This document shows positions 3,401 to 63,644 of a stretch of 64,000 nucleotides of DNA, piece after piece (position 1 is the stretch's first letter; every line of letters starts with the position of its first letter). The position numbers were made by a program, and so were the translations under genes. The stretch is from Hexactinellida sp. DTS-2022 (lineage: Eukaryota; Porifera; Hexactinellida): NCBI GenBank assembly GCA_028753945.1, contig JAPNXP010000003.1:2852001-2916000 (forward strand), written 5' to 3'. The notes beneath the pieces were generated by a model. It was not told the DNA's origin. It saw only the letters and a list, made by a program, of their open reading frames with translations, and did no database searches.

Positions 3401-6400
3401 AGTGATATTTAATTTTATATTTGGAATTGGTATATTATTATACATGGACAAGCTCATATATCTAGAAAATTATCTGTTCAAATTTGCATAAATATCCAAA
3501 TTATTTAATCTGTCCTTATAGAAACCTGTAGCTAGGATGAACGGATATAAATAGACAGCTAGCGGCCAACCATCAAGAACGACATTTAATTTGAAAAGGA
3601 GATGCTTTAAATACAAGCGAGGGTCGTAGGCCCGAGTACAAGTTGTAAGGACGCGCGTAGAGCAGACGAGCAGATTGTACTAATAAATATTTTTTGTGGT
3701 TGGGATCTCCATACTAGTTTCAATAATCCAATAAAACTTGAGTATATTCGGAATAATCCAATAAAACTTGAGTATATTTGGAATAATCCAATAAAACTTG
3801 AGTATATTTGGAATAATCCAATAAAACTTGAGTATATTTGGAATAATCCGGTAAAACTTGAGTATATTTGGAAAAACTTGATTATATTTACAAATTAGTT
3901 GAGTATTGTTGAGTATATTTGGAAATTTTTAAAAAACTTGAGTATTTTTGGAATTTTCCCATTAAATAATACTACTAGTGGGGTCAAAAATTAAGATTCC
4001 GTGACCTTCCTCTGGCTAGTTAAGTTTTATGTCTGATTCTGATACTTTAGGGTATATCTCGCGATTTAAGTTCCCATTCCGCTCTGGAAAGTTTGGGCAA
4101 ACTTTTTTTATAGCGACAAATTCAAAGGGCCTCCGGCAATCATTTTGAAAAATTAAGGCCCCTATCTGAACATTTCATAAATTGAGATTAGAGTGTTTTT
4201 GAACAGTATACAATAAGTAGTAGCTGCCCTGAAATTTCAGCTCAATCGGGACTATACTTTCAATGTAATAACCTTTTGAAGATTCTTACGTCATTTGTCA
4301 CCATGGGAGGTCCATTCTTAAAAAGTTTTTTTAAAGGGATTTGAAACATATCTCATCCTATATACATACAATAACCTTTTAACTCGCTATGTAGTATGTC
4401 TCCATGTAAATCTCGGTAATAGACCTAAATTTAGCACTTTGACTCTTCTGGGGATCTCACATGGGGGTGACGAAGCAAAGAAAATTGACCCATAATCGTT
4501 TTATTCGCCCACTTCATATACTATATAATTATCACAATTTTGACGTCAATTGACTGGATTTTTTAATTTTTGTATAGTCAAAGTGCTAAATTTAGGTCTA
4601 TTACCAATATTTACATGGAGACAACTACATAGCCAGTTAAAAGGTTATTGCATGTACTATATAGGATAAGATATGCTTCAAATCCCTTAAAAAAACTTTT
4701 TAAGAATGGACCTCCCATGGTGACAAATGACGTAAGAATCTTCAAAAGGTTATTACATTAAAAGTATAGTCCCGATTGAGTTGAAATTTTCAGTGCAGCT
4801 ACTACTTATTGTATACTGTTCAAAAACACTCTAATCTCAATTTATGAAATGTTCAGATAGGGGCCTTAATTTTTCAAAATGATTGCCGAAGGCCCTTTGA
4901 ATTTGTCGCTATAAAAATTTTTGCCCATACTTTCCAGAGCGGCATGGGAGCTTAAATCGCGAGATATATCCTAAAGTATCAGAATCAGACATAAAACTTA
5001 ACTAGCCAGAGGTTGGTCACGGAATCTTAATTTTTGACCCCACTATATATAGTAAAGGACATTTCAGTATCTACGTTAGTGAGTGTCACCAGCCAGTCGT
5101 GAAAGTAATCGAAATATGACTTGAAAATTGATTTGGTTATAACTTGTAAGGATGGATTCGGTTAACCGGCTAACCGGTTAACCGTTGCTGACATCGGTTA
5201 ACGGTTAGAGATTTCATTAACGAGTTAGCCGGTCTGTTGAATATCAGCAGAGTAATTGGGAAATTAATGTATAAACTTTCTATAAAGTATTAAAAGAATT
5301 AGAATTTTATCAGAATATGTAGTCCTAAACCCATTTCTCATCACCACTTAATAAATTTTCTTAGACAACATTGATTTCAATTTACCTAAAGCAAGAAATG
5401 TCTCAGTTAATATACATATTCTGTTATAGTTATACTTTATACATCTGAGTCTTATTCTGTAGTATAATCAATTTTTATAAAGGATTTATTGTATTGAGTA
5501 GGTTGTGCGGTTAACCGGTTAACCGTTGAGAGAAATCGAATTGTAACCGTAGCCTCAGATCGGTTAACCAATCCCACCCTTGTCAGACTTGATATTCGAT
5601 TTTGTATTATTTGTTGATGTTGTTTTCTTAATACTTTATTTATTTGGAAAATGACTTAGATATTTTGAAATGACTTGCAAATTGATTAAAATTATTTTAT
5701 GTTGTTTTAGTGTGCTTCTTCTAGTAAAACGTTATAGTAGGGTCCTACTATAGTTTTATACTAAAAGTCCACACGTGACCTTCGTTATATAAGGCCTTAC
5801 TACTACTCCGAACCATGGATTACTTAAAGGCCATTGATTATTAGCTGACATATCTTTATCTCAATAGCTAGTAATGACAGACCTGAGAAATGCATTATAA
5901 TTATATAGGAAGTTAGGAAGTTAGGAACATGATATCAAGGCATACATAATACCCTTTAGTATTGTGATATATCACCATTTGATTACGTAATCGCTATTTT
6001 TCGTGGGAATTATCGTGTTTTTATAGCCTGCTTTTAACATTGTTAAACGCGTTATAAATGTTCAAAATTGGAACATGAGGATGTCCATAACTAGTTGAAT
6101 GAAATATATCGAAATTATAAATGGAATGTTGACACATTCCTCGGTTGCCAGGGAAATGTATATTTCCTAAAATGAGCCATAACTCAAAAACTATCGATTT
6201 TATGTAAACTATGCTAGTACTGATCTATCCGCAATTGGTAACTTCCTATTCATTGATAATACATTTTCTAGGCCTAACTTCAATAATCTTTGAGATAATG
6301 AGATTATTAGCACTTAATTCTTTATATGGTAATACAATCATTATCTCAAAGATTATTGAAGTAGGCCTAGAAAATGAATTATCAATGAATATGAAGTTAC

Positions 6401-27400: not shown

Positions 27401-30400
27401 TCTCTATTGAACTGCCCAATGAATACCGACTGGATTTGATAAGTTGTTGATAAATAATGTTAATAAGATGTGTCTAAATAACATGGTAACAAAGCCTAAC
27501 TAATAAATCCTATTGTGTCACTTCATGCACAACACTAGTTTAATCATTGCAAACAATTTACATGGGCGAAAATTAACGTAATATGATACACACGTAGCTT
27601 ATAGCATATACGTAGTGTTTAACAATTTAATCAAATTCCACTCGATTCCACTATTCAGTCAAATTCCACTCAATTCCACTCGATTCCACTATTCAGTCAA
27701 ATTCCACTCGATTCCACTGTTCAGTCAAATTCCACTCGATTCCACTGTTCAGTCGGTTTTTAGAAAATCCACTCGATTCCACTGTTCAGTCAGATTCCAC
27801 TCGATTCCACTCGATTCCACTGTTCAGTTGGTTTTTAGAAAATCCACTCGATTCCACCGTTCAGTCAATTCCACTAAAATTTAGTAATTCCACTAGATTC
27901 CACTGGATTCCACTAGATTTCACCATTCAGTCACCCTAGATTCCACTAGATTCCACTGGATTCCACTAGGTTCCACTAGATTCCACTGGATTCCACTAGA
28001 TTCCACTATTCAGTCAGCCCCATTTAATAGTGATTCGGAATTGATTTAAAAAGGATTTGAAAATGATTTGAATTTCAAATCATTTTCAAATCATTTTCAA
28101 ATCATTTTCAAAATCATTTTCAAATCATTTTTCAAATCATTTTCAAATCATTTGCAGATCATTTCAAATCATTTTCTATTCTTGTTTAAATCATTTCCGG
28201 ATCCATTTCAAATATATAAGATCATTTTCAAAATTTGAATGCGATTTAATAGTGATTCGGAATTGATTAAAAAATGAATGAATTTCAAATCATTTCAAAT
28301 CATTTTTCAAATCATTTTCAAATCATTTTTCAAATCATTTTCAAATCATTTTCAAATCATTTTTCAAATCATTTGCAGATCATTTAAAATAATATTCTTT
28401 AAATCATTTTCAAATCGTTTCCAAATCGCTTTTAATATAATTTCACTTCATTTTCAAATATATAAGATTACAAAGTACTATGGAACCCGAATCTTCTCGT
28501 TTTCTTCCCCGCATTTATGGAATTCCATCCCAACCACTATCAGAAATGCGGGCTCGGTTGAAATTTTCAAAAAACATATCAAAACTCACCTGTTCAACTT
28601 ATGCTATCCCTAATCTCCATCTTTGTAATATTTACTTATTTACTTTTTTGTGTATCTTAGGACTTTTTGATATTCTCTACCTTGTAAACGCCTTGGGACT
28701 CTGGTGTGAGGCGTACAAAATGCTGTACTATTATTATTATTATTATTATTTGAAAGTTTCAAATATTTCAAATATTTGATTTGATTTGATTTGAAATTTT
28801 TTGAAATCTCAAATGATTTGAGATGATTTGATTTGAAATAATTTTAAATCTAAAATGATTTGATTTGATTTGATTTGAGAAAAAAAAATGATTTATTTAC
28901 AACCCTGTATATTACGGATAGAGAATTAAATTCTACACCTTTTGGCAATTCGCAAATGTTCAACTTAGCCTAGGTTTGTGCCATAATTGGGGTGCCAATC
29001 TCCTGTGTTTCCTCACACTTCAGATTCAGTAAAACTGTTAAATATAATTCTATTGTTTCAACTTGTAATAATTTTATTGATTTAACTTGTTAAATCTTAC
29101 TCTATTGATTCAACTCGCGATAATTATATTGATTTAACTTATAAATTCCAGCTGGCTTCTATTTAATTGTAGTATTACTATACAATGGATTAAATATAAT
29201 AATATAATATAAGGAATTTGTTGACTTAACTCACTCACCGTGGATAACATTGCTAAAATAAATAACTAATAATATAATTTATTATCAATACATAATGAAT
29301 GAATGGCATTAAACTCTAGATGGTTTATGATAGAAACAAACTTCAAATTTATCTACATTTCCTTGTGACTCGGACCAATTAACAAATGCTTCTTGATACC
29401 CCGAGGCGTTGGTGACTTGGCGAAAAAAATCCAAAATTTGCGCCTGTGCCGACAGCATGTTCCTTTGGAGGCACTATCAATAAACCACAATCAAAATATA
29501 GTGCCACCAAAAGGAATATGCGTCGGCACAGGCTGTAATTTTGGATTTTTTAAGATAATTGCATTAAGGGTTTCAATTGCGCTTATAAAACCATTCAAAT
29601 ATTTATCTTTACACTCCTTTTGTAATCGACCTTTGCTTTGGTCACCGAATTAGATCTTCTGGTAGTCCAATGGAACCACTTTTGAGAATCTCAGATTTGT
29701 GGTTAAGCTGTGTAGGCGCCATTTAACGATGGCATCACAAATGTACAATACGAGTCTAAAGAACTACGAGAAAATGAAGATAATTTGCTAATATACTTAG
29801 TATACATTTCCGAATATATAATGAGAATGCATCGAATGAATATATATAAACCAGCAATTATATACAGTCAACTCCGCAGCCTACGCTTAATAGAGCCACC
29901 GGTTAATCGGTTTCTCCGCTTAATCGGGTCAAAATTTCACCGGATTTATAGGACAGAATTATAGTTTGGCTTACAATATTTTCGGTTAATCGGTTCAAAA
30001 CAACCTGGTCCCGAGGTGGCTCTATTAAGCGGGGTCGACTGTACGTTTTATGGACGAAAATAGTACTGTTTCATGATATAGTGACCCGCGTGATATACTG
30101 ACCCGCACCATGGATTTTCATGATATAGTGACCCGCGTGATATACTGACCCGCACCATGGATTATTTACATCCATATACTGAGCCGCTTACTATACTAAT
30201 CTACATAGTGCAATATACGTACGTATTCTAATATAGTAACTGACCCGTTTACTAATCTACATAGTGCAATATAAGTATGTATTCACATCCGTGATATTCA
30301 CTAATCTACCTAATCCAATCCGAAATTTCGTTTTATTTTCTGTTTCACCCTAAATTCTCAATAATAATATAATAAGGGTTGGGTAGTTCAATCATCAACA

Positions 30401-33400
30401 ATAATAGATTCAATCGAATCCAAAGAATTAAAAGAGACATAGGGACATTTCATCAGCCGTATGACTGGTTCAAAATGTTTATTGTAATTAGTTATATACA
30501 TACACACTGTTTCTGGATAATTGCTGCCGCAGTATCGTAACCATTGAATTCTTTCCAAGTTTTTCTTAGGGCAGGATGTCTGTGTTGCGACAAATATATG
30601 CGTGTCGAGGATTCTCGAGATAGCGATTAACTCTACGTCGCTTGCCCATATGCCATCTTCTGTCATTGCTGACTGTTTAAGATATGTCAAAGGGGAAGTG
30701 TCCTTGAAGAATTTAGTTCTGAGATACTCTTGGATAAACTCTCTCCCTTCAGTAACGATATATCGACAAATTTCACCCCGTAACTGTTTGTGGTAGTTTT
30801 GCGATCCAGAAATAATTTGGGAAAAGCAACGGAAAAAACAATTCCCATCTTTCTCGATTTGAGTACATTGCCACGGGATATAATGTGAGAGTAGTAATCC
30901 CGTCAGTGCCCTGTGTTGATCCATCTCTCCGAAAAACTCCACTTTCATCTTTTTGCATATTTCTTGCTGCCAAAGCGAGGTGATTGGTTGGTAACAAGGC
31001 TTGTAATCTACCGGTTGTACTCCTGATATTGTATAAGTGGCAACAGATGGTTGGGTATTGAAATACTTGCTTTCAAGATGATCACAGATCTATATAGTGC
31101 AGACTGGTTAAACATGTAATGAAAAATCACTAATTATTATTGTAAACTTACTACTGGGTAAAGAACTCGGTGAGCGTATTCAATACACTTTGCGTTGGGT
31201 GATATCTCACCATAGGCCTCTTGTGACCATTTGAGAAATAAGTCAACCATCTCTTCTCTCTATAAATTAACAGATAAATTCATAATGTGCAGATTAATTA
31301 GCGGAACAAATTGCAATGTTCGAGTATTATATACCATTGTAAAGGCGTCGACATCTCTAAGGAAAGAGAACAGCATAGTGTATGTTGGGCACATTAGCCT
31401 TTTCTTAGAGTCCATTAGTTCTCTGTGTAATGGAGAGAATGGGGTAACGTCTTTCAAATGATTGATCATTGTAACCTAAATTTGTGATAACATACAAGAT
31501 AGCATACAAAATGTACGTAGTCATGTGATAATAGTAAAGAGATACCTACTTGAAGAGATTCCAAATCATAGAGTATAGTATTTCGTGTAATTCCAAATAC
31601 CCATATCCTGGGAGAATTCTATTAAATTGAAAGCATGTTAATATCTGCATATAATTAAATACACCATTTCGTAAATATAATATCTACCTTGTGTCGTTTC
31701 AGAAAAGAATTTTCTTGACTGTCATCGTTTTGCCTTTTTGAAGTTTTTTTGGGAAAAATCGGTAAGTTTAGTGATGAGGTTGTCGAAGAATGAGATGTCT
31801 AAGTTGAATAAGGCCACATTATATTAAAACCCAACTCCATAAATTCTGAGAGATTATTATAGGAATAAGACAAGCGGATCGAATATTTTAGATTAAATTT
31901 CTTTACCTGTACTATATCACGAGAATTGTACTTTTTAGCCAAATGCAGTGGAAATTTCTTTGGACGCTTTATATTAGTAACTACAGCATGACTTTTCGTA
32001 ACTTTTTCTGCTTTAAAAGGACCCAAATATTTTTTCTGAGTTGCAGTCCCAGGTATTTTCTTGTCCTTAGATACGTTCCTTGCCAAAAATAAATCTCCCA
32101 CTTGGATCTCGGATCTAAAGTAAAATTGATCTAAAGATTAATGTGCAAATCGTAACTAAATAAACTCTTTCTAAGGCAAAATTGATAATAATATATTTAC
32201 AGATTTTTACCTGTTATCTTTCACCTTTTTGTCAAAAATTCTTTTTTGCTTCGTTTGCTCGATTTTAATATTAATTCGTGCCTCTATTTGGTTTTGAGTG
32301 CGAATATTTTGCAAATCATTAAGATTTTCATCTATTGAATCTAATGGACCACTGAATTCGTCATGATATTCAGTCAGAGCCTCTTCGTCTGATAGGTTCT
32401 CTTGATATTCTTCCGAATCATCTTGCATGCTTGCATTATTACACAATTTTATCAAGTGTGCCGGGTTGCATTTTCGCCCAAACATTAGTTCAAACGCTGA
32501 GAATTTAGTGGACCTTTTTATTTTTGTGTTTGCAGCAAATACTGCAATAGGCAACTTCGTCGGCCAGGAACCATCAGAATCCAACTTCAATTTCTCAATC
32601 TTTCTAATTAAATTAATAAAGATTAATCAAAAATGGGCGTTGTATATACTACTAGTAGATAGATAGATTAATTAATTAAAGGAATACTTAATAATTAATT
32701 ACTGAGTGCTTACGTTTTCAGAATTTTATTGTGTGACTCTACCAAGCCATTACTTTGTGGATGGTATGCTGTTGTGCTCCTGTTATCAACGTCAAGAGTG
32801 CGATGAAATTCTTTGAATTCCTAATTTATAATATAAACTTATTTTTATTCGTTATAAATTTAGCTTGTTACATTCAATTATGCAATTATCATTGCACACC
32901 AACCATTACGTAAAGTTACATCATTTAAGATGCCGCAAGCAATTGTTTAGTTTCCGTAAATAATTGTATTTGCAACATAAATATGGTGTTGTGTGAAACC
33001 TCAATAAATGTAGCTATCATTGCTAAGCCTCTAAATCATTGTTTTAAATCGCGCTACATTGAATAAACTCTTCGTCATCGACAACTTCAAACTTAATTAA
33101 AACGCTTATTTGTTACGATGAACTACTGAGCTCTACCTTTTACAAATTAACACCGTTAAAATTAAACCAAATAACCTCAACAAACCTTGCTTGTAAATTC
33201 TTTCCCTTGATCATGCTGAATAGAGGATGATACGCCAAATGTAAGATATATTGCGCGTAATTCTGCCACGACTTCTGCTGATGTTTTGGTCTTTAGTGGG
33301 CGCGCTATAACGAATTTGGATAGGTAGCATACAACAACCAGGATATGCAAATATCCAAATTCATTTGTTGGCATATTATTGACAAGATCGATCCCGATAT

Positions 33401-36400
33401 GTTGCCATGGGCCCTCTGGTGGAACTATTGGTTGGAGTTCGCGTTGTGGTTGAGGAGGTCTTTTCGCAGTTATCTGGCAACCGTGACAAGACTTTACCTA
33501 AACATGGGAAATATTAAATTATTCTGGATTGTTGAGCTGTTGAGCTTATTGGGGCCAATTACAATTTTTTATTACAAAAACACAAAGAAAATATATATAC
33601 TCACATAATTCTTTATATCTTCTGTCATACCGGACCAATAATATTTCTCGCGTATTGAGCACATCATTGAATTTACTCCGGGATGATCGGAATGATACAA
33701 ATTCAAGATTTCCGGAATTTCTGACTTTAAAGGATACTTGAATTGTTCAAAATTTCTCGAACGATTTTGAATGTCCTAAAATTCTAGTTATCTTTATGCC
33801 ATTTTAGATATTAAAATTTGGGTTTCATTGCTTACCTTGAAGAGCGTTTTTCCTTCAAATACACGAAATGAAGAGGCTTTTCGTCGATAGTTTTTCTTTG
33901 CATATCTACTTGCCTGTGGAGATAGATTCTGAAACTCCGCTGGGAATTCTCCAGACAGTAGAAACACAATCAAGTTTTGATGAATATTAGGATCCATTAG
34001 ATGAGTATTATTATTAGAAAACTGTACGTTTACTTATAGTAGAGCAGTAAGATTTGCTATACGAAATATATCACGGAAGTGAATACGTATATATTCAGAA
34101 TGTGGTCAGTATATCAGAATACATACGTATATTGCACTATGTAGATTAGTAAACGGGTCAGTTACTATATTAGAATACGTACGTATGTATATTGCACTAT
34201 GTAGATTAGTATAGTAAGCGGCTCAGTATATGGATGTAAATAATCCATGGTGCGGGTCAGTATATCACGCGGGTCACTATATCATGAAACAGTACTACTT
34301 GTATTTTAGCATGTGTGTTACTTTATAATTTTTAAATCTTTAAAATGTCGCCATTTTGTGATTTAGTAGCCTTTGGGGTATTAAATAAATTCCTATTTAG
34401 TATTCCTGTTATAAAATTATTGGAAAGTAAGAAAAATGAAATTTCTGAATTTTGAATTTTTTTTCATTTTACCATAAATTGTTACCGTCATCGTTAAATG
34501 GCGCCTAAACAGCTTAACCACAAATCTGAAATTCTCAAAAGTGGTTCCATTGGACTCGCAATGGTTGATTATCCCATAAACAATGCAAATTATGCGGAAG
34601 CATAGTTTAGCTTAGAATAAAATTACAAAACTAGACTCTTATTTTCTACTATGATTTGGCACCATGTATATAGCCGTATTATAGTAGGCCATGTTCTGCC
34701 CCATTGTTGTAGCATTTTCATTATAGAAAACTGATAGGTTACGATGTTCATTTATCCATTATTTACAGTTTTAGTAAAATATATCCTAAAACTTTTAACC
34801 ATTTCCTTTTATAAATCTAATAATCCTCACAAAGGCATCTCTAGAGACAGAAAACAGAAAATAGTTCTTCTTCTGGAAGCAAAGGTAACCTCATAGCATG
34901 CGAATCCATATCCAAAAATTTTAATTTTACTTATTATAGTGAAACCAACACCCAATTATCGTAATGGAGGGATAAATTTGTCTGTCTAAGTTCCTAAGAG
35001 CTATTTCGAAACCCCAATGGCAAAAGATGGATTAAAAGATGGTAGTAACATGTTCATAGGCGGCGAGTCGTATATAAGAACATCTTATAACCAACATTCC
35101 GGTTATTTGAACATTAAATGCGGTTTCCGACGATGTTCTTATAACCGGCATCCCCTTTAGTTAAATAACGTGTAAATTTAATCTTGGCCTTATATGTCCA
35201 TGACATTTGAGAAGGAAAAATGGTTAATAACTTAATATTAAACGTATTTGAACAAAATGTTATTGAATACTTAATCGATGTTCTTCGTAAATTTATTACA
35301 AAATTATATATTTCCCGAAACCATTATTCTGCTGAATTTTCCAAATATTTGGCATAATCAACTTCGGTCGATCACTAATCTCCACCCCCCTTGGAAGCGT
35401 TGCGTAACGTTTGAACGCCCCTTATACTACTACTTATGCTAGTTATCAGTATTATTAGCTGTACATACTATCTCTAACGAAGGCCGATACGCTTTCAGAA
35501 ATTTCTGGGGAGAACACTATATTAGGTGCTTCATTATCAATTTGTAATTTACAGTAATAATCTACTTACCTAACTTTTCATACTTCTGTGCAAGACCATT
35601 TTTCAGCGCGTCGCTCTTCTCTAATAGTCCACCTCGAATCTCTGCCCACTGGCAGACTTGTAAAGAGAACAGCCTATAGGTTGGTACATACCAGTGCTCG
35701 ACAAATTAGGTAGTTTGGTGACGTTAGCCACCAACAATCTTTCTTAAGTCACCAAATTTAGCCTTTGGTGGCTTAACTAATCCACCATAAATTTAATTGA
35801 TTTAGTGTAGATTTTATTTTTCGTTGCATTATTTGTTATTAATATAGAGTTGTTTCACTGTATCAGTGGTTTGTTAGGCCATCAGTGGTTTGTTAAACCG
35901 GCCGTTGTTTATTCTTCAGCTACCAGAAAATGTGAGGTGGTGGCTTAATTAGCCACCATCAAAATTTCATTTTGTCGAGCGCTGGTACATACTGTAACAA
36001 TATTGCTCTTTAGCTCATTAGCCATTAAGTCCTCTAAGTTATTTAGTTCCTTATATTATATATATTATATATTATTGTCCAATTTTTATTTTAATCAACT
36101 TTGTATAATTCGCAGATTCACTGAGGTGAAAGCTCACGAGCATAGGGCTAAAGCAAAGAATTACGCTGGATTTACCAATCTATACGGGGAAATTATCACT
36201 ATTGAGATTAAAAAAGTTGCAAAGCGACTCGGTATTGCAGTTGATGGTGGAGCTAATACAAAGCAAAAGGAAGTGAAGATACGTGAGATCATGCCCGGGG
36301 GGTCCGCTGCGTTAACGGCAGATGGTTTGCGTGTCGGCCAACATATTCTAGAAGTCAACGGACGGACTTTAAAAGATCTAACTCATAAAGAGGCTGTTCT

Positions 36401-36476
36401 CACCATAAAAGGAGCCTTCGAAGCAGACGATAAAGTAATGGAGGTAGTTGTGTTAGAACCGGAGAATCATTTCTAG
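207..36476 (+). CDS. Whirlin-like coiled-coil + PDZ scaffold gene (3' five exons; 5' part outside window)
   Basis: Five exons (207-454, 722-884, 9444-9765, 21624-21975, 36116-36476) are each bounded by AG and GT. Their junction phases (2, 0, 1, 2) agree at every join, giving 481 in-frame codons to a TAG stop. Residues about 1-220 are almost entirely charged coiled coil rich in E, K, R and Q. An acidic linker (HPHDNEDDDP) and a second helical stretch follow. A PDZ domain spans roughly residues 388-478, with carboxylate-binding loop LGIA near 400, then GGANTKQ, GGSA and ILEVNGRTL. That signature matches, from memory, the third PDZ of whirlin, which organises stereocilia and ciliary complexes with harmonin-type partners. 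In vertebrate whirlin the preceding region is proline-rich, so the coiled coil is a difference; a harmonin/whirlin relative is the alternative. The N-terminus and start codon lie upstream. Splice structure is seen directly; family assignment is from recall. Confidence 0.85.
722..884 (+). CDS. Whirlin-like gene, coiled-coil exon
   Basis: The acceptor ends in GAAAG and the donor is GTGGAA. The first base completes the Arg codon split in the previous exon, and the exon ends in phase 0. It continues the E/K/R/Q-rich coiled coil for 54 codons. Confidence 0.75.
928..1100. mobile_element. pogo/Tigger-like MITE
   Basis: Inverted ends CAGTGAACTCCCGTTAT and ATAACGAGAGTTGACTG are flanked by TA on both sides. 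The inside is repeated GGATATAACGAA-type sequence with no coding capacity. CAGT ends with a TA target fit the pogo/Tigger branch of Tc1/mariner. Confidence 0.75.
1469..1600. repeat. Decayed copy of the CAGTGCTCGACAA MITE
   Basis: GCAGTGCACGACAAAATG and the following GGTGGCTAATTAAGCCACTACCTCACGG are the reverse complement of the right half of the complete copy at 35692-35984. Only one end is recognisable here. Confidence 0.5.
2281..2465. mobile_element. pogo/Tigger-like MITE
   Basis: Ends CAGTAGAACCTTGTTAGTACG and CGTATTAACGAGGTTCCACTG are inverted and flanked by TA. The length is 185 bp and it is non-coding. A lone left end of the same family (CAGTAAAACCTCGTTAGTACG) sits at 39291. Confidence 0.75.
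2635..3969. repeat. Fold-back element with 30-bp satellite arms
   Basis: The left arm has repeats of a ~30-bp unit containing CCAAATCTACTCAAGTTTTTC (about 2700-2870). The right arm has the inverted unit AATAATCCAATAAAACTTGAG, five copies about 3720-3880. Extreme ends, AATGGGAAAATTCCAAAAA and its complement, close the structure. The interior includes a dispersed repeat also found at 8648-9260. Confidence 0.75.
2935..3345. repeat. Dispersed repeat, copy 1
   Basis: It shares TTCAGAATTGATTGAGGAACCGG and CTGTCTAGCCA...CATTCCATTGTG with the stretch at 8648-9260. No coding frame or defined ends were seen. Confidence 0.5.
3976..5045. repeat. 1.07-kb palindrome with ~470-bp arms
   Basis: Left TAGTGGGGTCAAAAATTAAG pairs with right CTTAATTTTTGACCCCACTA. 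The arms stay nearly identical to about 4443 and 4577, leaving a spacer of about 130 bp. No ORF of note. The arms could form a very long hairpin in RNA or single-stranded DNA. Confidence 0.9.
5152..5580. repeat. CGGTTAACCGG-ended MITE-like repeat
   Basis: Left AAGGATGGATTCGGTTAACCGG matches the complement of right GATCGGTTAACCAATCCCACCCTT. The ends are rich in GGTTAACC and the interior is AT-rich and non-coding. A fragment of similar type is at 1150-1210. Confidence 0.5.
5766..6710. repeat. 0.95-kb palindrome (asymmetric arms)
   Basis: Left GACCTTCGTTATATAAGGCC pairs with right GGCCTTATATAACGAAGGTC, and the arms pair inward to about 6300/6336. The left arm holds about 180 bp (6055-6235) that the right arm lacks. 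One arm of the same family, including that 180 bp, occurs at 13290-13415 plus 14661-15055. Confidence 0.85.
7815..7848. repeat. Short perfect palindrome
   Basis: GAAGGTAGATATAGTTA is followed directly by its exact complement, a 34-bp perfect palindrome just inside the right end of the element at 2563-7902. It may be a subterminal hairpin of that element. Confidence 0.8.
8648..9260. repeat. Dispersed repeat, copy 2 (interrupted by a MITE)
   Basis: It matches the copy at 2935-3345, including CTGTCTAGCCA and CATTCCATTGTG. It is interrupted at CCATTGTG by the hAT-type MITE at 9022-9177. Confidence 0.5.
9022..9177. mobile_element. hAT-type MITE, CAGTGGCGTCGTGC ends
   Basis: Ends CAGTGGCGTCGTGCT and AGCACGACGCCACTG are inverted, with a perfect 8-bp TSD CCATTGTG. 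It is 156 bp long with poly-C/poly-G blocks inside. Confidence 0.9.
9444..9765 (+). CDS. Whirlin-like gene, coiled-coil/acidic-linker exon
   Basis: The exon is bounded by TGTGTAG and GTAAGT, with phase 0 in and phase 1 out. It encodes basic-acidic coiled coil that passes into an acidic stretch (DNEDDDP) and a short WKDSP motif. It follows an 8.6-kb intron full of repeats. Confidence 0.85.
9766..11171. other. Intron sequence, little recognisable
   Basis: This is AT-rich intron. About 10216-10310 has GTTTTGTCC/GGACAAAATCC inverted motifs like a decayed MITE starting CAGGGTTGGGTTTTG. About 9985-10010 resembles a pogo MITE end (ACCTCGTTATAATG). Nothing coding was seen. Confidence 0.5.
11172..11461. 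mobile_element. Inverted-repeat MITE, CACGGTACGTGG ends
   Basis: Left CACGGTACGTGGTATACCG matches the complement of the right end exactly, and the arms continue with GGTATAATTAGGTATAA motifs. TGCACAAAT and TGCACAAT flank it, a near-perfect TSD. It is non-coding. Confidence 0.8.
11480..11610 (-). ncRNA. tRNA-derived SINE-like element with A and B boxes
   Basis: On the minus strand TGGCACGGTGG (11583-11593) fits the RNA polymerase III A box and GGTTCGAATCC (11539-11549) is a consensus B box, 33 bases apart. The sequence between does not fold as a clean tRNA anticodon arm. A tRNA-derived SINE head or a tRNA pseudogene is more likely than a working tRNA. No tail repeat was identified. Confidence 0.45.
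11900..12032. repeat. Terminal hairpin repeat (TCCAAAATTGCAGCCTG family), copy 1
   Basis: AAAATTGCAGCCTGT...GGAGGCACTA is followed by TAGTGCCTCC...ACAGGCTGCAATTTTGGA, forming a long stem with a short loop. It is a diverged copy of the hairpins at 26203, 29423 and 47683. Confidence 0.75.
12290..13295. repeat. Fragments of the dispersed repeat that accompanies the hairpins
   Basis: 12290-12840 is a reverse-oriented relative of 29040-29340 (CAATGATCCACGGTGAGT..., ATTCTATTGTTTCAAC). 12840-13295 is forward and resembles 22920-23290 (TTTACTAACACTTCAGTTC, GGTGTCTCATGGGTTAC). This is rearranged repeat sequence with no gene. Confidence 0.55.
13416..14660. mobile_element. pogo/Tigger-like element, 1.2 kb, with nested MITE
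   Basis: Ends CAGTGGAGTCTCCGAATAACG and GTTTTGGGAGTCTCTACTG are inverted, with TA on both sides and subterminal TCCGTTGTT/CTTCTCGG motifs. It contains the hAT-type MITE at 13523-13832. No complete transposase is present; an 89-codon ORF at 14093-14362 resembles nothing I recognise. Confidence 0.75.
13523..13832. mobile_element. hAT-type MITE, CAGGGGCGTACCGTGC ends
   Basis: Left CAGGGGCGTACCGTGCGGGG and right CAGCACGCCCCTG are imperfect inverted ends with a perfect 8-bp TSD CACACAAT. It has C/G homopolymer blocks and no coding. Confidence 0.85.
15147..16911. mobile_element. Fold-back element with GGTCTTATTCC satellite arms
   Basis: The left arm (15163-15290) repeats GGAATAAGACCGAAT and the right arm (16710-16905) repeats its complement. 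A 7-bp TSD TGTCGGC flanks it. Inside, 15300-15600 and 16610-16700 carry diverged ~55-bp repeats (CTTTCTAAGTGTGA...AAAACACTCGCC) resembling the interior of the fold-back at 18660-19636. A hAT-type element (15607-16600) is nested in it. Confidence 0.85.
15607..16600. mobile_element. hAT-type element, CAGTGGCGGATTA ends, 994 bp
   Basis: Ends CAGTGGCGGATTA and TAATCCGCCACTG are inverted, with a perfect 8-bp TSD GTATTAAT. Subterminal motifs (GAGGCTAATGAGGCTGAAG / AGGGGCCTCAAAGGC) are imperfect inverted repeats. No transposase ORF, so it is non-autonomous. Confidence 0.9.
17143..17302. mobile_element. pogo/Tigger-like MITE
   Basis: Ends CAGTTGAAACCGGATATTTTT and AAAAATATCCGGTTTCAACTG are perfect inverted repeats flanked by TA. 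The inside repeats AATCGGATATTTTTAACA. It is 160 bp and lies just upstream of the hAT transposase relic. Confidence 0.85.
18339..18527. mobile_element. hAT-type MITE, CAGGGCTGGGGTCAAATAC ends
   Basis: CAGGGCTGGGGTCAAATACA and TGTATTTGACCCCAACCCTGG are inverted, with GTATTTAAATAC-rich interior. GTTGTTAC and CTTGTTAC flank it, an imperfect 8-bp TSD. It interrupts the hAT relic's codons for PVVTRWNS. Confidence 0.8.
18660..19636. mobile_element. Fold-back element with GCAATTGGTCGAC satellite arms
   Basis: The left arm (18668-18830) has six or so ~26-bp units around GCAATTGGTCGACT. The right arm (19450-19630) has the inverted units. Ends GGGCGCCCTTGCAATTGG and CCAATTGCAGCGTCCCC are followed by a 7-bp TSD CAATATA. 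Interior repeats (GTGAAAAGAATCGCCTTTC, 18870-19160) recall the fold-back at 15147-16911. It is inserted in the hAT relic. Confidence 0.85.
19227..19411. mobile_element. pogo/Tigger-like MITE (CCGCTTAATAGAG family), copy 1
   Basis: CAGCCAACTCCGCTTAATAG and CTATTAAGCGGAGTTGATTG are inverted and TA-flanked. Sister copies are at 29865 and 40315. It is nested in the fold-back at 18660-19636. Confidence 0.85.
20376..21307. mobile_element. hAT-type element with ATCGATTATTT satellite interior
   Basis: CAAGGTTGCCAATCCAATCC and GGATTGGATTGGCAACCCTG are inverted, with a perfect 8-bp TSD GTTATAAC. The interior near both ends is dense in ATCGATTATTTATCG units. No transposase. Confidence 0.9.
21624..21975 (+). 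CDS. Whirlin-like gene, second helical segment exon
   Basis: The acceptor is TTTTTCTAG and the donor is GTTTGT. The first two bases complete the Glu codon from the previous exon, and it ends in phase 2. It encodes an Ala/Glu/Lys-rich helix, a Ser/Thr/Asp-rich spacer and another short helix. Confidence 0.85.
22080..22345. repeat. Degenerate tandem repeat, TGGAATTTGTCCTAAA
   Basis: Irregular copies of CTGGAATTTGTCCTAAAT-like units recur at about 25-35 bp spacing just after the fourth whirlin-like exon. No function is apparent. Confidence 0.55.
22797..22910. repeat. Palindromic ~60-bp tandem repeat, array 1
   Basis: Two units of ACTGTGCCGACTATACTATAG plus TATAGTGGCCCAGT, each centred on the perfect palindrome ACTATACTATAGTATAGT. 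Related arrays are at 45600 and 63725. The sequence that follows (22917-23290) resembles that after other copies. Confidence 0.85.
22911..23445. repeat. Body of the dispersed repeat following array 1
   Basis: Motifs TTTACTAAGAGGCC...GGTGTCTCATGGGTTAC-like, AATTCTACACCTTTT and TTCTATTGTTTCAACT are shared with 12840-13295, 26336-26540 plus 28903-29110, and partly 45780-46500. Non-coding. Confidence 0.55.
23446..23612. mobile_element. pogo/Tigger-like MITE
   Basis: CAGGTAAACCTCCCAAAGCGG and CCGCTTTGGGAGGTTTACCTG are perfect inverted ends flanked by TA. The interior repeats AAGCGGCAC units. 167 bp. Confidence 0.85.
23613..26202. other. Unrecognised intron sequence
   Basis: About 2.6 kb of AT-rich sequence with no ORF, inverted repeat or array I can support. 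It lies between array 1 and the hairpin at 26203, and may be the interior of one element delimited by those two. Confidence 0.5.
26203..26330. repeat. Terminal hairpin repeat, copy 3
   Basis: ATCCAAAATTGCAGCCTGTGC... pairs with ...GCACAGGCTGCAATTTTGGAT over a stem of more than 50 bp with a short AT-rich loop. It is preceded by GACATGGCGG, as in the other copies. Confidence 0.9.
26931..28021. mobile_element. 1.1-kb fold-back element with 10-bp AGTGGAATCT arms
   Basis: Left arm 26943-27250 repeats AGTGGAATCT at a 10-bp period, broken by TGACTGAA spacers. Right arm 27635-28018 is the inverted array. The central 27250-27640 is itself inverted (GTTAAACACTACGTATATGC / GCATATACGTAGTGTTTAAC). Ends are GGGGC...GCCCC. 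ATTTATATAG and ATTTAATAG flank it, and the second matches the uninterrupted host unit. Confidence 0.9.
28466..28751 (+). pseudogene. LINE reverse-transcriptase 3' fragment
   Basis: The frame to 28613 reads GTRIFSFSSPHLWNSIPTTI then FKKHIKTHLFNL. This is the conserved C-terminal signature of non-LTR retrotransposon reverse transcriptases (FS...APxLWNxLP...FKxxLKTHLF). After the stop about 110 bp of 3' UTR ends in a (TAT)n tract at 28728-28750, a usual LINE 3' end. This is a 5'-truncated insertion. Confidence 0.75.
29423..29552. repeat. Terminal hairpin repeat, copy 4
   Basis: AATCCAAAATTTGCGCCTG...TTTGGAGGCACTAT pairs with ATAGTGCCACCAAAAGG...CAGGCTGTAATTTTGGATT. The preceding body (29040-29420) matches 12290-12640 inverted and part of 47570-47680. 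Confidence 0.85.
29865..30041. mobile_element. pogo/Tigger-like MITE (CCGCTTAATAGAG family), copy 2
   Basis: CAGTCAACTCCGC...CTTAATAGAGCC and GGCTCTATTAAGCGGGGTCGACTG are inverted and TA-flanked, with an AGCCTACG insertion near the left end. It ends 25 bp before the Ginger left end. Confidence 0.85.
30067..30300. repeat. Ginger left TIR with internal duplication
   Basis: The first ~47 bp (TCATGATATAGTGACCCGCG...CACCATGG) occur twice in tandem. The remainder (GCCGCTTACTATACTAATC...) matches the right TIR. Repeated GACCCGC and CTACATAGTGCAATATA motifs could be transposase binding sites. Confidence 0.85.
30388..33997 (-). CDS. Ginger transposase: HHCC-DDE integrase fused to OTU protease, 11 exons
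   Basis: Exons on the minus strand: 33997-33836, 33775-33605, 33497-33186, 32820-32714, 32603-32211, 32114-31907, 31798-31688, 31618-31550, 31475-31335, 31259-31152, 31089-30388. All ten introns (60-365 bp) are GT-AG and all phases agree, giving 827 codons plus stop. The HHCC finger has HSDHPG in exon 2 and CHGC in exon 3. The integrase core has D148 (IGIDLV), D207 (HDQGKEF) and E243 (SNGLVES), with exactly 35 residues between D207 and E243. VGDLFLARN and a GPF motif follow. The C-terminal OTU domain has DGNCFFRCF (Cys about 678) and a late His (KHFEP, about 799). Such proteins insert the element by integrase chemistry; the OTU is presumably a deubiquitinase. Domain families are from recall; splicing is inferred from consensus sites and frame. 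Confidence 0.88.
34075..34291. repeat. Ginger right TIR
   Basis: Complement of the left TIR without the duplication, ending ATATCATGAAACA. Two GATTAGT...GTAGATTAGTA/TGCAC motif sets are present as on the left. Confidence 0.9.
34296..35691. other. Intron sequence with the outer inverted-repeat arm
   Basis: Apart from the arm at 34489-34556 I see AT-rich sequence only. Fragments such as AACATCTTATAACCAACATTCC/GATGTTCTTATAACCGGC (about 35070-35155) may be a decayed pogo MITE. No gene. Confidence 0.4.
35692..35984. mobile_element. hAT-type MITE, CAGTGCTCGACAAA ends
   Basis: CAGTGCTCGACAAATT and AATTTCATTTTGTCGAGCGCTG are imperfect inverted ends with a perfect 8-bp TSD GTACATAC. It sits 131 bp upstream of the PDZ exon. 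A decayed relative is at 1469-1600. Confidence 0.88.
36116..36476 (+). CDS. Whirlin-like gene, terminal PDZ exon
   Basis: The acceptor is TTCGCAG. The first base completes a split Arg codon and the frame runs to TAG at 36474-36476. This exon holds the whole PDZ domain, with LGIA binding loop, GGANT and ILEVNG. No AATAAA is obvious close to the stop. Confidence 0.9.
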
Positions 36477-53039: not shown

Positions 53040-53355
53040 AGTCCAGCAATATGGTGCATGAAATGGTCGAATTGTGCATTTTCGAGATAAAAGTGCCAAA
53101 TTTTGAACAATTGTACATAGCCTACTCTATAAAAGGCTAGACAGTAAAGTTGAAATATAGTACCAGGGATGCAGTAGTAAGTGGGCATTTATAACCAACC
53201 ATAATTTTTAGCAATCTTTGTTTCATTAATTGTTCACATGCCTATCTTTATAATTATACTATTATATACGCGCATAATACATATTTTTATCTTGTTCGCT
53301 ACTATTTTTATTCTTTTGGGTTCCTAACTATTATATACTAATTCTTACGTTCAAG

Positions 53356-56094
53356 ATGCCGAACAGTTGTTCAGCTCCGGGCTGCCAGAGTAACTACTAC
53401 GAGTCAGACGACCGAGTTACCGTTTTCAAAATGCCAACAAATCCACCTGAACTGAAACAAGCTTGGATCCGGGCTCTACGTCGTGATGATATTGCTGACA
53501 TGAAGGTAGTGCGAGTGTGTATTAAACATTTAAGGCAAGAAGACATAGAAGCGACGCATAAAGTACCCAAAGGAGACGGAACGTTCACAGAAGTACCTCG
53601 TGACAGGCCTAAGTTGAAAGAAGGCGCTGTTCCATGTTTGCTGCCTGGATGTCCATCTTATTATTCAACAACATCGAAAACGAAGCGGACTCGCTTGTCA
53701 TACCACTCAAAGGAAGAGGAATTGCTGAATAAAACCATACAGATGAGTTTGATTACTGAGACAGAGGAAACATATAAGTACAAGATCAATACTCTACAGG
53801 ATCTAAAAGATAAGTTGACTCTCGTTTCTTTACCTAATAATTGGTTAGTATGGTACCGTGATAATCTTGCCACATTTATTCTCCCCAGTCTGATAGAACG
53901 GAATATATCAGTCGACCTCTATCTTGAAATTAATTGTTTTCTATCCGCAAATGCTTTTTCGAATGGACAAAATATTTCTATTACTGCCAACTCAATAACT
54001 GATATCCGAGAAATTGAATCAATTCTTTGCGAAATATCCTCGAAATACACCTCTAAGTATATTAACAACTGTCATGAATATCATATACATCGAGCCAAAG
54101 AACACATTATTGAGGCAATTTCTGATATAAAACAAAATGACGGGGTTGAAATACATTCTTCCGATTTAGAAAAGCTTCAATTTATCATTTGTCAGTTAGA
54201 AATTACACTTATCCCAAAAGACAGACGAAGGTATAATGTAATTACACAAATAATGGCTATTAAAACTCATCTCATATCTCCTGCTAGCTATAGATATCTT
54301 CAAGGTTTAGACTGTCTATCTCTACCACACGTTCATACATTGGAGAAGCTATATTCTTCTTTTGGTCTCGAGAATGATTTTTGTGCATATCTTAGACAGG
54401 CTACTTCGTCCTTTACTCCTCAGGAACGGAATGTAATTATTCAAATGGATGAGATACATGTCAAATCGGAAATATCTTACAAAGGTGGAAAGGTATATGG
54501 CCCAAACTTAAATCCTGAAGATCCAACGAGAACAGTTTTCGCAGTTATGGTATCCAGTCTTCATAAAAAGTGGTCTTGTATTTCTCGTTTGCTACCATGC
54601 GCATCTATCTCTGCTGAAAAAATATTTCCTATCATAAAATCTTGCATTATCGATATTGAGCATTGTGGTTTGAGCGTTCAAGTTATAGCAACTGATAACT
54701 ACCCGTTGAACGTTAATCTCTTTAAATTGTTTTCTCTCAATAATAAGCTGGAGATTAAAGTGCCTTACCCTGTTGACAATCACAGAATTATATTCCTTAC
54801 GTTTGACTTTGTTCATATATTGAAGAGTATTCGCAACAATTGGCTAAATCAGAAAGATTTTGAGAAAACATTTCAATATCCAAATCTCGAAAATTTTGCA
54901 GTTGATTATTGCCAATATCCTCTTAAAGTCCATTCAGCTTGCTTCCAAGATATACGTCTTCTTTATAACTCGGAAAGTCAAAGTTTAGCTAAACTAGCCC
55001 CCCATCTTACCATGAAAGCTTGTTTTCCTTCTGCTATAGAACGACAAGATGTCAAATTGGTTCTGAAGGTCGTTAACGAATTAACACTAGCTGCTCTAAG
55101 AATTCGAGACGAATCTCGGTTACCTGAATATCGTAAGAATACTTCTGACTTCATATGTATCCTTCTTTCATTATTGAAAATATTCAACATCAATACACCG
55201 TTTAAGGGTTTCCGTTTAAACGATAGCCTCTCGAACCCTTTGATCCTTAATGATGAAAGATTCTTATACTTGACTCGTTTAGCATTTTGGTTAGAAGCTT
55301 GGGAAGCGTTACCTGGGAAACTAGGAAAATTGAGCAAACAAACATTTACTAGTGTTAAGCACGCATGCAATGCACTACCCGAAATCACTAACCATTTAAT
55401 TCAAAATTGTGGGTTTTCATACGTTCTATCTTCCTTTTTGCAAACAGATCCGCTTGAACATCATTTTTGGCTATATCGTATGATGTCGGGGTCGAATTAC
55501 CATATATCTTATCTACAAATTCTAGAAACCGAACGTCGTCTCAAGCTATCCACTGTCTTGAATTTTTTTTCTCAGCAATCGGACTCTTCCTTATCCATTC
55601 AGACATTCGTCAAATCCTTTTCTACCCCAGATTTTATTAATCCTGATCATGATGACTATATAATTTTAGATCCGTTCCTTGAAGATATAGGCGATTTATC
55701 ATCCATCGAATGTAATACACAAATTCTTCAATATTTAGCCTTTATCGCAGGTTATGCAGTTCACAAATACTTGAAACATCACCAACCTTGTCATGTCTGC
55801 CTTGATACCTTGACATTTGATAAAGAGTTTCTATTCGATCTTGACTTTCCTTCGGAGTTTAAGCTCCTCCATTTAACAGATCGTGGTCGACTGAAGTATC
55901 CATCTGAACCGCTTCTTTCTGTTGTAATTATTCTGTGGAAAATATTCGTTCTAATTGAAAGTGATGACAATCTCTTGACTAAACTTGTAGAAGGTTCATC
56001 TAGAGAGATTCTTGTACAACTCACATTAATCTTCATAGGAGAAATTGGTGACAATGATGTTTGGAGATGTAAATGTGTTAATTGCAGGGAATGA
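53356..56094 (+). CDS. P-element-family (THAP9-like) transposase
   Basis: A 912-codon uninterrupted frame. Residues 1-~97 are a THAP zinc finger with C5, C10, C55, H58, an invariant-type Trp (W37) and an AVPCL box near residue 93; THAP domains bind the element's own DNA. The RNase H-like catalytic core shows D365 (QMDEIHVK), D447 (IATDNYPLN) and E701 (DPLEHHFWLYR), fitting the D-D-E order of P-element/THAP9 transposases. No introns are evident. The present C-terminus (CVNCRE then stop) is not original. A MITE inserted at codon 910 supplies the last two residues and the stop; beyond the MITE the original frame runs 45 more codons to TAG at 56801. Whether the shortened protein works is unknown. 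Confidence 0.9.
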   Translation: MPNSCSAPGCQSNYYESDDRVTVFKMPTNPPELKQAWIRALRRDDIADMKVVRVCIKHLRQEDIEATHKVPKGDGTFTEVPRDRPKLKEGAVPCLLPGCPSYYSTTSKTKRTRLSYHSKEEELLNKTIQMSLITETEETYKYKINTLQDLKDKLTLVSLPNNWLVWYRDNLATFILPSLIERNISVDLYLEINCFLSANAFSNGQNISITANSITDIREIESILCEISSKYTSKYINNCHEYHIHRAKEHIIEAISDIKQNDGVEIHSSDLEKLQFIICQLEITLIPKDRRRYNVITQIMAIKTHLISPASYRYLQGLDCLSLPHVHTLEKLYSSFGLENDFCAYLRQATSSFTPQERNVIIQMDEIHVKSEISYKGGKVYGPNLNPEDPTRTVFAVMVSSLHKKWSCISRLLPCASISAEKIFPIIKSCIIDIEHCGLSVQVIATDNYPLNVNLFKLFSLNNKLEIKVPYPVDNHRIIFLTFDFVHILKSIRNNWLNQKDFEKTFQYPNLENFAVDYCQYPLKVHSACFQDIRLLYNSESQSLAKLAPHLTMKACFPSAIERQDVKLVLKVVNELTLAALRIRDESRLPEYRKNTSDFICILLSLLKIFNINTPFKGFRLNDSLSNPLILNDERFLYLTRLAFWLEAWEALPGKLGKLSKQTFTSVKHACNALPEITNHLIQNCGFSYVLSSFLQTDPLEHHFWLYRMMSGSNYHISYLQILETERRLKLSTVLNFFSQQSDSSLSIQTFVKSFSTPDFINPDHDDYIILDPFLEDIGDLSSIECNTQILQYLAFIAGYAVHKYLKHHQPCHVCLDTLTFDKEFLFDLDFPSEFKLLHLTDRGRLKYPSEPLLSVVIILWKIFVLIESDDNLLTKLVEGSSREILVQLTLIFIGEIGDNDVWRCKCVNCRE

Positions 56095-56656
56095 AAGGTT
56101 CACGAACGGACAGAATTGACGCAATTCAGTTCATCTTAAATTGACGCACGTTCAGTTCGTTCAAGTTCACCTCCTAACTTCAGCTCCACCAGCGTTCGTT
56201 CAGTTCGTTCACGAGCTAACCCGCGTTCGTTCAATCCGTTCAATTCGTTTAGTTCAGTTCGTTCAGTGTACAGTAAGTGGTACGAACTATTCCGTTTATG
56301 ATAGACTGTTCGGTCCTCCAAACTGTTATTGAAGTTCAGGTTAAGAAGCTAGAATCTAAGCTAACAGACATGAGTCCACTAGGGATGTCCGGAATTAGCA
56401 CTTTTGCAGTCACCTATTATATTTAATGGGTCTATATTTATAATTTATCTTTATTCAGTTTAGTTCGTTCAGTTCAGTTCGTTCAATCCGTTCAATCCGT
56501 TCAATTCGTTCAATTCAGTTCGTTCAATTCGTTCAATCTCCGTTCGGAAACCGTTGGCGTTCGTTCAGTTCGTTCACCGTGAATCCCTTAAATGCCCGGC
56601 GTTCAGTTCGTTCAGTTCAAATTCAATAAGTTCGTTCGTGAACCTTTCATTCCCTG
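56085..56656. mobile_element. hAT-type MITE inserted in the P-like transposase ORF
   Basis: CAGGGAATGAAAGGTTCACG and CGTGAACCTTTCATTCCCTG are perfect inverted ends with a perfect 8-bp TSD GTTAATTG (56077-56084, 56657-56664). The interior is dense in GTTCAGTTCGTTCA repeats. It truncates the transposase. Confidence 0.95.
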
Positions 56657-56664
56657 GTTAATTG

Positions 56665-56803
56665 CGATACTTGTAGGTGGAAGATCGTGCGCCAACTTAT
56701 ATTTACTGCAGCAAATTGTATTATCGCAAATAAAATTAAAAATTACAACTCACTAGTAAGTTCAAGAGCAATTGAAAAGCGTAAATTAAAGAAGTTTTCA
56801 TAG
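56665..56803 (+). pseudogene. Displaced C-terminal 45 codons of the P-like transposase
   Basis: In the frame restored by ignoring the MITE, this stretch is open from 56666 to TAG 56801-56803. It begins DTCRWK and ends in a basic run (EKRKLKKFS). The C-x-x-C spacing continues the Cys pattern just before the MITE, which suggests a split zinc-binding motif. Confidence 0.8.
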
Positions 56804-58133
56804 ATTTGTTCAGACTTGTTTATTGTTGTTTGTTTTAGTTATTGTCAGCTCAGAAGTGAAGCCAGATTGAAGTCAAGTCCAAATGTCAGAGAGAGAGGAT
56901 GGGAGTATGTTAGATTAACATTGGACAACTGTAGATCGTGTGTGTCGTTCTAATTTGTAATTGTTGATTTTGTGTTTGTATTTATACTATGATTAAAATA
57001 CGCGGATAGAGTTTCTCATAGTTTCTCAATAAGGAGTAAATAATATCAGTAATGTCTATAGGGAAACATAACTTTAAATACAATATTGTTATATTGTAAT
57101 ATAGAAAAAGTCCACTTACTACTTCATCCCTGGTACTTTTACTGTCTGGCCTTTTATAGAGTAGGCTATGAATTGTAGTATTATAGGTTCTGATCAACTT
57201 CAGATATGGCACATAGCAGAATTTTTGGAAGAACAAATTTTTCAGGGGGTCAAAAATTGGTGCCCAATCGAAATCGCCGGCAGTATAAATACAGGATAGC
57301 TCATTCAAATGAATTCTTAACGACTTTATATTGTCAGATTCGTGCTCAGCACTTAATTTCCAGCATTTTGATAGGTATATAGACTATATTTGGTGATAAT
57401 ATTTTTTGGTTTTCCATGTAAGAATGTGATAACAGTCCCATCTCCCAATTTGGAGTAACCATATCGAGTGACCCCTTGTTTTTCTCGGGTATGCTTACTG
57501 AGTGCGAATATACTATTAGAAACACTCTAAATATTAATTGTCGATCCAAAAGTATGCATTTTCATATCCTGCTATTTGATTCGCCATTTTAATACCTTGA
57601 TCCCTCAATATTTTGTCCAAAAAATAAGTGAACCATTTCAGTAATTGTATTTATGCAACTAGGGCGGACTGAGACAGTTTCAAGGGCACTGTCTGTAGGG
57701 CCGTTTTGTTCGTGAGCTGGCCAAAAGCCTGCTATAGGGAGGGATCTGCCAGCTTACTTCCATATGTGGGGTTGCGTCACCCTGCAAATATTTATATGTG
57801 GTTTTAAATAGTTACCATTTTAGTTATTAGACTGTTATAATTAGTCACAATTATGACTAGTATTTATGTTGTTGTAATGCCATCAGATATTAGTGTTAAA
57901 CCTGACGCCGCCGCTTCTCTATTTTTATCAAACAAATGTATTAGTGAGATATCTCGCTCTTTCTGGCTGCATGGGACGATAAATTTATATTATTAAAATT
58001 CGATTGTTGTGCTTTTTGTTTGTTTTCTTGTTTGTTTGTTGTTCCCGATTATATTAGAGTGATAGGTAGATATAGAACGGATTTATTATTGAGATAGAGA
58101 CTCACTTCCAATGTTATAAGAAGTAATCATGTA

Positions 58134-62609: not shown

Positions 62610-63023
62610 TATATAATAAATTTTTTATCGGTATGTGCATGTCGGGCGATGATTTTGAAATTATTGAATTATGACTCCTCCAATTATGATTGAAGCCAAA
62701 AGGTGGGCACAGTTAATCAAAATGTTAACTTCGTTAATCGTTAATCCGTTAATATTTATGAGACATAGTACTTCAATTGAAATTTCTTTGGTATCGCTGG
62801 TCACTGTATACTTACTTACCGGATCAACCGGGTCAAAATTTACCGGGTCAGCCGGGGCAACGGGGCTGAGCCTACCGGGTACCGGGTCATAAAATCTTGA
62901 CCCGGTCCAAGTCTGATATACGTGTAATACATGGTACATACTTCGAATTAACCCAGATAAGTTATCACCCAGATGATGTTTCTATAATTTGCTAATCTGG
63001 TGACTGTTATATTAGACTTAAAT

Positions 63024-63644
63024 ATGGCCAAAAGAAAAGGTTTATCACTTGACGATAAGCGACAAAAAATAATGGAAATTTTTAGAGAGAAGCAGGAATT
63101 TTATCAACTTAAAGAAATTGAGTTTATTTCTAAGAAAGAGAAAGGACTGAATCCAATGCAAGTTAAAGAATTAGTTCAGTCACTAGTCGATGACGATATG
63201 ATAGATACAGATAAGATTGGTATTTCCACCTATTACTGGGCTTTCAATAGTAAACAGTCTGCTCAGAAGAAACTCAAAGTTGAAAAAATTACCAAAGATA
63301 TTAAAGAGTTAGAAGATCAAGAGAGGTTATTAAAATCTCAATTGGAATCCAGGAAGATCGGTCGTGAAGAAAGTGAGGAGAAAATTAAAATACTAAAAGA
63401 AATGGAACATGAGTCTCAAAAGGCTGCCTCTTTTCAGAAAGAATTAGAAGGATTGAAAGATTCCGATCCCTCTGCATGGGGAGAAAAGGAAGAGGAAACT
63501 AAGTTAGCTATGTGTGGTGCTAATAGATGGACTGATAATATATTCTCTGTTGTGAGCTGGTGCAAAACTAAATTTAACATGGAGGAGAAGAGTTTGAATG
63601 ACGCTTTCGGAATTCCTGAAGACCTAGATTATGTCGAAAATTGA
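63024..63644 (+). CDS. MND1: MND1, meiotic nuclear division protein 1 homologue
   Basis: A 206-residue intact ORF beginning MAKRKGLSLDDKRQ, the conserved MND1 start. An in-frame ATG eight codons upstream (63000) is less likely to be used. Residues 1-~75 form the winged-helix DNA-binding domain, ending in STYYWAF. Residues ~78-150 are coiled coil, and the C-terminal part has NRWTDNIFSV and FGIPEDLDY. The length equals the usual ~205 residues. MND1 pairs with HOP2 (PSMC3IP) in the nucleus and stimulates DMC1/RAD51 strand invasion in meiosis. The gene has no introns here; no poly(A) tract or TSD proves a retrocopy, so an intronless native gene is also possible. Tandem array 3 starts about 80 bp downstream. 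Confidence 0.95.
   Translation: MAKRKGLSLDDKRQKIMEIFREKQEFYQLKEIEFISKKEKGLNPMQVKELVQSLVDDDMIDTDKIGISTYYWAFNSKQSAQKKLKVEKITKDIKELEDQERLLKSQLESRKIGREESEEKIKILKEMEHESQKAASFQKELEGLKDSDPSAWGEKEEETKLAMCGANRWTDNIFSVVSWCKTKFNMEEKSLNDAFGIPEDLDYVEN

Follow-up and report, generated by a model that had tools for sequence, protein, structure and literature searches.

The window analysed here is a 64,000-nucleotide stretch of contig JAPNXP010000003.1 (positions 2,852,001 to 2,916,000 of the forward strand, assembly GCA_028753945.1) from the sponge Hexactinellida sp. DTS-2022, and all positions below without a contig label are those of the window. It contains a whole Ginger-type transposable element of 4225 bp (30067-34291) with its gene on the minus strand, delimited by its ends, by a target site duplication (TSD) and by comparison with three further complete copies. 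The original prediction had described a Ginger transposon whose integrase is fused to an OTU protease; that identification was correct, its coordinates were exact, and the GTAC duplication and long terminal inverted repeats (TIRs) that it reported are present.

Element ends and predicted gene

The termini of the window copy read TGTTTCATG...CATGAAACA, the start being TGTTTCATGATATAG and the finish its inverse, and they are flanked by GTAC on the left (30063-30066) and on the right (34292-34295). The left TIR, on the 3' side of the gene (30067-30284, plus strand), is 218 bp long and contains a 47-bp tandem duplication at 30069-30163, while the right TIR, on the 5' side of the gene (34117-34291, minus strand), measures 175 bp. 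The pair is identical at 168 of 173 aligned columns, and the left TIR alone carries one surplus perfect unit of the 47-bp tandem. A subterminal motif, ATASTGASCCG, counted with up to two mismatches allowed, occurs six times on the plus strand of the left side (30078-30247, with starts at 30078, 30095, 30125, 30142, 30176 and 30237) and five times on the minus strand of the right side (34102-34280), where the innermost copy lies just beyond the TIR. These repeats are likely candidate transposase-binding sites.

The predicted gene comprises 11 exons (2484 nt including the stop) that encode 827 amino acids with a single terminal stop, and all ten introns, of 60-365 bp, are bounded by GT and AG, in agreement with the lesion-free 827-codon frame proposed originally. 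Exon 1 (33836-33997, residues 1-54) is followed by exon 2 (33605-33775, residues 55-111), which holds the first half of the HHCC zinc finger, and by exon 3 (33186-33497, residues 112-215), which supplies the CxxC and the first two catalytic aspartates of the integrase core. The catalytic Glu243 is contributed by exon 4 (32714-32820), and the GPF motif by exon 6 (31907-32114), which lies downstream of exon 5 (32211-32603). Exons 7 (31688-31798), 8 (31550-31618), 9 (31335-31475) and 10 (31152-31259) lead to exon 11 (30388-31089), in which residues 595-827 and the stop codon form the OTU-like cysteine protease domain. Each of the expected domains scores above its Pfam cut-off (Integrase_H2C2, 1.7e-16; rve, 1e-10; OTU, 2e-9), and the HHCC, D-D-35-E, GPF and OTU features of the original prediction could all be located: H82, H85, C115 and C118 for the finger, D148, D207 and E243 for the core, with 35 residues separating D207 from E243, and GPF at 413-415.

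Relatives elsewhere in the genome were compared with the gene exon by exon; because 55 of 2236 candidates were scored, they represent a sample. They are 36-89% identical to it in individual exons, and for nine of the ten introns a GT donor lies at the corresponding position in relatives; that of exon 1 is matched in L080, L037/L040 and L045. Exon 7 found no match in the relatives compared, and for intron 7 the only correspondence is an acceptor-side AG in L080. The GPF position reads GPF in L037/L040 and GRF in L080. Near residue 18, upstream of the zinc finger, where the YPYY motif of Ginger1 was looked for, F-P is followed by aromatic residues, but L080 has L-P and L045 has Y-S at this place.

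Copies and target sites

When 234 bases of the left end were used as a query against the full 112.4-Mb genome (18 contigs), eight places were returned. They are the two termini of each of four complete copies, namely the window copy and those at C11:7.05 Mb, C16:3.40 Mb and C8:1.76 Mb, which share its ends. Pairwise identity among the four is 95.96-99.9% at aligned positions, the lowest figure, between C16 and C8, including poorly aligned extra sequence in intron 3. The window and C8 copies agree at 4174 of 4178 aligned bases, which bears out the claim of a recent insertion. Read with one common set of exons, the window copy alone is free of lesions (1/4): codon 211 of the C8 copy is a stop and its intron 3 holds an insert of 967 bp, the C16 copy is shifted by two bases in the last exon and has extra sequence in intron 3, and the C11 copy carries a scrambled patch spanning exons 8-9. 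The C8 insert (L049) has the ends CAGTCAAACC..GGTTTGACTG with TA at its flanks and is possibly a Tc1/mariner- or pogo-like element. Two codons of the window copy differ from all three sisters, R61 (G in the sisters) and S201 (P in the sisters, encoded in exon 3). The left-end search detected no non-autonomous derivatives, all eight places being ends of complete copies, and since it skips very common words their absence is unproven.

The TSDs of the four copies are GTAC, GCAC, GTGC and GTAC. The C11 and C16 copies occupy two different sites of one repeat resembling a miniature inverted-repeat transposable element (MITE), and in the repeat flanking either copy the site used by the other is empty. 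The joined 74-base MITE sequence, representing the empty sites of C11 and C16, was found at 100% in all 40 scored places of 1286 candidates, showing that these elements insert precisely and did so recently; 38 further listed matches in the empty-site search are partial and inverted.

Ends of relatives, which carry TGTTTCAT or its inverse, were compared in 12 end regions, with the edge of each element assumed to correspond to that of the window family. A C1 family has GTAC flanks, with its 5' end in L040 and its 3' end in L022 and the identical copy L021, a pairing that presumes a single element lengthened by about 5 kb. GATC flanks both ends of a C4 element (L045/L033), and one-sided flanks read GGCC (L080), GGTC (L034), GGCC (L035) and GGAC (L039); among these 12 regions no target end was readable for L003, L038 or the 5' side of L080. 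GNNC is thus found in 10/10 target readings, four from the copies and six from relatives, of which four are one-sided. Since GNNC accounts for 3.3% of the tetramers in the window, its occurrence in 4/4 copies would be expected by chance with a probability of about 1e-6.

The element itself is bracketed by a 68-bp inverted repeat (29664-29731 and 34489-34556, 97% identical) and therefore seems to be nested in another repeat. Elsewhere in the window, a P-type element occupies ~53116-57170. Its TIR blocks measure 33 bp (97%) and 32 bp (91%), AATTGTA is its probable duplication, and its open frame of 938 codons, counted from stop to stop, contains THAP and TNP-like RNase H domains. The original statement that the other coding elements here are mostly wrecks left it out of account and is not fully upheld. 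The 3' flank of L080 (C16:1.22 Mb) continues as the terminal sequence of this P-type element; L080, itself a Ginger relative, apparently entered a copy of the P-element terminus at GGCC. It holds further inserts, and in the stretch read nothing matches the catalytic-core exons. Frames resembling Mnd1 (62988-63641) and containing a PDZ domain (35949-36473) are probably host genes. The G+C content of the sixteen 4-kb segments of the window is 32-42%, and a scan of the window for Rfam families found none.

The OTU domain

When exon 11 is taken alone, Pfam OTU matches it at 3.4e-10, as the original assignment of residues ~595-827 to an OTU family anticipated, and the best match in the PDB is OTUD1 at 1.9e-6. 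A profile of six OTU sequences hits OTUD1 (7.7e-9) and OTUD5 (1.3e-6 and 1.7e-6), the best PDB relatives being OTUD1, OTUD5 and OTUD3, followed by viral OTUs. The motif D675-G-N-C678 and H799 provide the D, C and H that are invariant in six aligned last exons, and that we take, from the OTU consensus, to be the catalytic residues.

The ratio of nonsynonymous to synonymous substitution (dN/dS) in the OTU exon is 0.164 between the window copy and L021, 0.164 between the window copy and L022, 0.092 between the window copy and L080, and 0.157 for both L021-L080 and L022-L080. Since L021 and L022 are identical, these values and that for L033/L034 amount to six measurable values from four distinct pairs. 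The exon looks to be under purifying selection, with ratios of 0.09-0.16 in three of the four distinct measurable pairs; the substitution pattern suggests that the domain matters, and no more than that. The protease is probably functional, and interference with host ubiquitin signalling, as originally proposed, is possible.

At least 150 Pfam OTU matches, scored from 440 candidates and all over the cut-off, occur genome-wide, and about twelve of the 150 were inspected. OTU frames are often of recurring length (226, 227, 446 and 1260 residues), as repeats would give. L001 and L002 look like host genes; L084 and L085, frames of 227 and 226 residues, show 37% resemblance to exon 11; and L086 has its OTU in a frame listed as 1260 residues and is of a different kind. 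L008 and L087 belong to the integrase-OTU type with fewer or no introns, the rve domain of L008 lying in a separate frame and L087 being assigned independently of Pfam. The Ginger-like frames L042 and L043 have no introns (657 and 802 residues), and in Pfam that of L043 shows H2C2 and rve and no C-terminal protease.

Interpretation and comparison with known systems

In our reading, to which we assign a probability of roughly 80%, the element is a Ginger1-type cut-and-paste DNA transposon of autonomous type that inserted recently and carries a single predicted spliced gene for an integrase-OTU transposase. The zinc finger and core would bind the repeated ATASTGASCCG motifs in the TIRs, cleave at TGT/ACA and insert the ends at staggered breaks in RGNNCY. 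Less certainly, the OTU domain may deubiquitinate the transposase itself or host factors, which might prolong the life of the protein or ease repair at the donor and target breaks, rather than cut a polyprotein. At a wider scale, the balance is even on whether an intron-rich integrase-OTU lineage has diversified in this genome, with a palindromic RGNNCY target rule where published elements have CCGG, landing in MITEs and P-element ends, keeping its deubiquitinase under selection and perhaps supplying most of the OTU domains of the organism.

Several results weigh against the reading as a recent Ginger1-type transposon. Clean empty sites were found for the C11 and C16 insertions and for neither the window insertion nor that of C8. 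For the window insertion the host repeat was found, and in 29 of the 40 matches scored the alignment runs across both flanks joined together; of three junction matches that were read (L081-L083), two have 15-16 extra bases and one is unmatched on the left, and they are not counted as empty sites for these reasons. For the C8 insertion the search returned its own two flanks and 38 scored matches of a partial right flank, with no empty site. The Pro201Ser change of the window copy lies in the integrase core, at a position that is also Pro in L037/L040, L045, L003 and L042/L043. In the OTU domain, the second PDB match of exon 11 is a viral polymerase-borne OTU (8.4e-5), so that the substrate is not fixed by sequence alone. 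Of 21 OTU-exon pairs, 14 are saturated at silent sites, one is identical and six are measurable; silent sites are near saturation even in measurable pairs (synonymous divergence of 1.7 for window/L021 and 2.8 for window/L080), and the L033/L034 pair gives a dN/dS of 0.518 from very few changes.

The window copy might itself be inactive and have been mobilised by another copy, its open frame reflecting youth only, which we regard as a real possibility although we lean away from it. The original prediction held that the element is intact and so possibly active; the frame is indeed open, but the inference to activity is weak, since few substitutions leave a frame open anyway (after two random substitutions the chance of no stop is ~90%, indels ignored) and openness thus speaks for youth more than for maintained function. 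That the other three copies carry lesions, and that the private Ser201 lies close to the catalytic Asp207, with R61 private as well, also favour inactivity, whereas its catalytic residues, its splice sites and the two TIRs have all been retained. Moreover, L005 and L008, of a more distant integrase-OTU type, carry Met at position 201, so that Pro may be dispensable. A domesticated host gene resembling GIN1 or GIN2 would account for the many introns, as the GIN genes have six to eight (PMC2836005), but the TIRs, the TSD and the presence of four recent copies in unrelated locations make it exceedingly improbable, and for the window copy they refute it.

The role of the OTU domain allows two further alternatives. 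That it is a passenger with no function for the element is unlikely, given the few amino-acid relative to the many silent changes between families and the invariant triad, although the presence of the OTU exon in relatives is no independent evidence, because most were found with an OTU-bearing query. That it processes the transposase itself by polyprotein-like cleavage, as the original prediction had also suggested, finds a parallel in viral deubiquitinases, some of which reportedly process viral proteins too (PMC9741609). This self-processing is very improbable here, and without sequence support, because the 827 residues contain no Gly-Gly; in addition no second enzyme follows the OTU domain, and the nearest PDB structures are those of OTUD1, OTUD5 and OTUD3, though viral OTUs come next. 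This family offers a tractable test of OTU function, being very young, with four near-identical copies, clean empty sites for two of these and a conserved OTU exon. The reason for deubiquitinase-like domains on transposases has been discussed since 2010 (PMC2836005), and viral and transposon OTU domains were described as untested for activity as of 2022 (PMC9741609).

Among known systems, Ginger2/Tdd elements share the integrase-type cut-and-paste mode, the H2C2 finger and a 4-bp TSD, but Ginger2 is described as having no GPY/F motif and as targeting RTATAY, whereas the window element has GPF. Helitrons are not known to have TIRs or a TSD. Those with OTU are alike in having the domain joined to a transposon protein, and differ in being Rep/helicase elements without an integrase (PMC9741609).

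The integrase-OTU fusion is not new but was published in 2010, when Bao et al. (PMC2836005) made a C-terminal OTU or Ulp1 domain a defining feature of Ginger1 transposases, proposed that these domains act in transposition via the ubiquitin pathway, and listed OTU in Ginger1-1, -2, -3 and -11_HM from Hydra, Ginger1-1_AC from Aplysia, and Ginger1-1 and -2_AP from the pea aphid. Judged feature by feature against that description, the window element agrees with Ginger1 in its single transposase with an H2C2 finger, a Gypsy-like DDE core, a GPY/F motif and a C-terminal OTU domain, the published hallmark; in TIRs within 40-270 bp (here 175 and 218) and a length within 2.6-7 kb; and in a 4-bp TSD, seen in 4/4 copies with empty sites for two. 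Published Ginger1 target sites are CCGG (75%) and CCGT/ACGG (24%) (PMC2836005), and a second source gives the TSD as 4 bp with no sequence stated (PMC10045372). In contrast, the sites here are GNNC, with CCGG or CCGT in 0/4 copies and 0/6 readings in relatives, a target rule that bears on integrase site choice. Ten introns compare with the 0-4 published, and the end TGTTT fits the TGT of TGTNR but has T as its fifth base. Neither GNNC targets nor ten introns are reported in the excerpts of PMC2836005, PMC10045372 and PMC9741609, an absence that carries little weight because Repbase lay outside the search. Since its TSD sequence and fifth terminal base depart from the published definition, we consider the element a Ginger1 variant rather than a plain member of the group.

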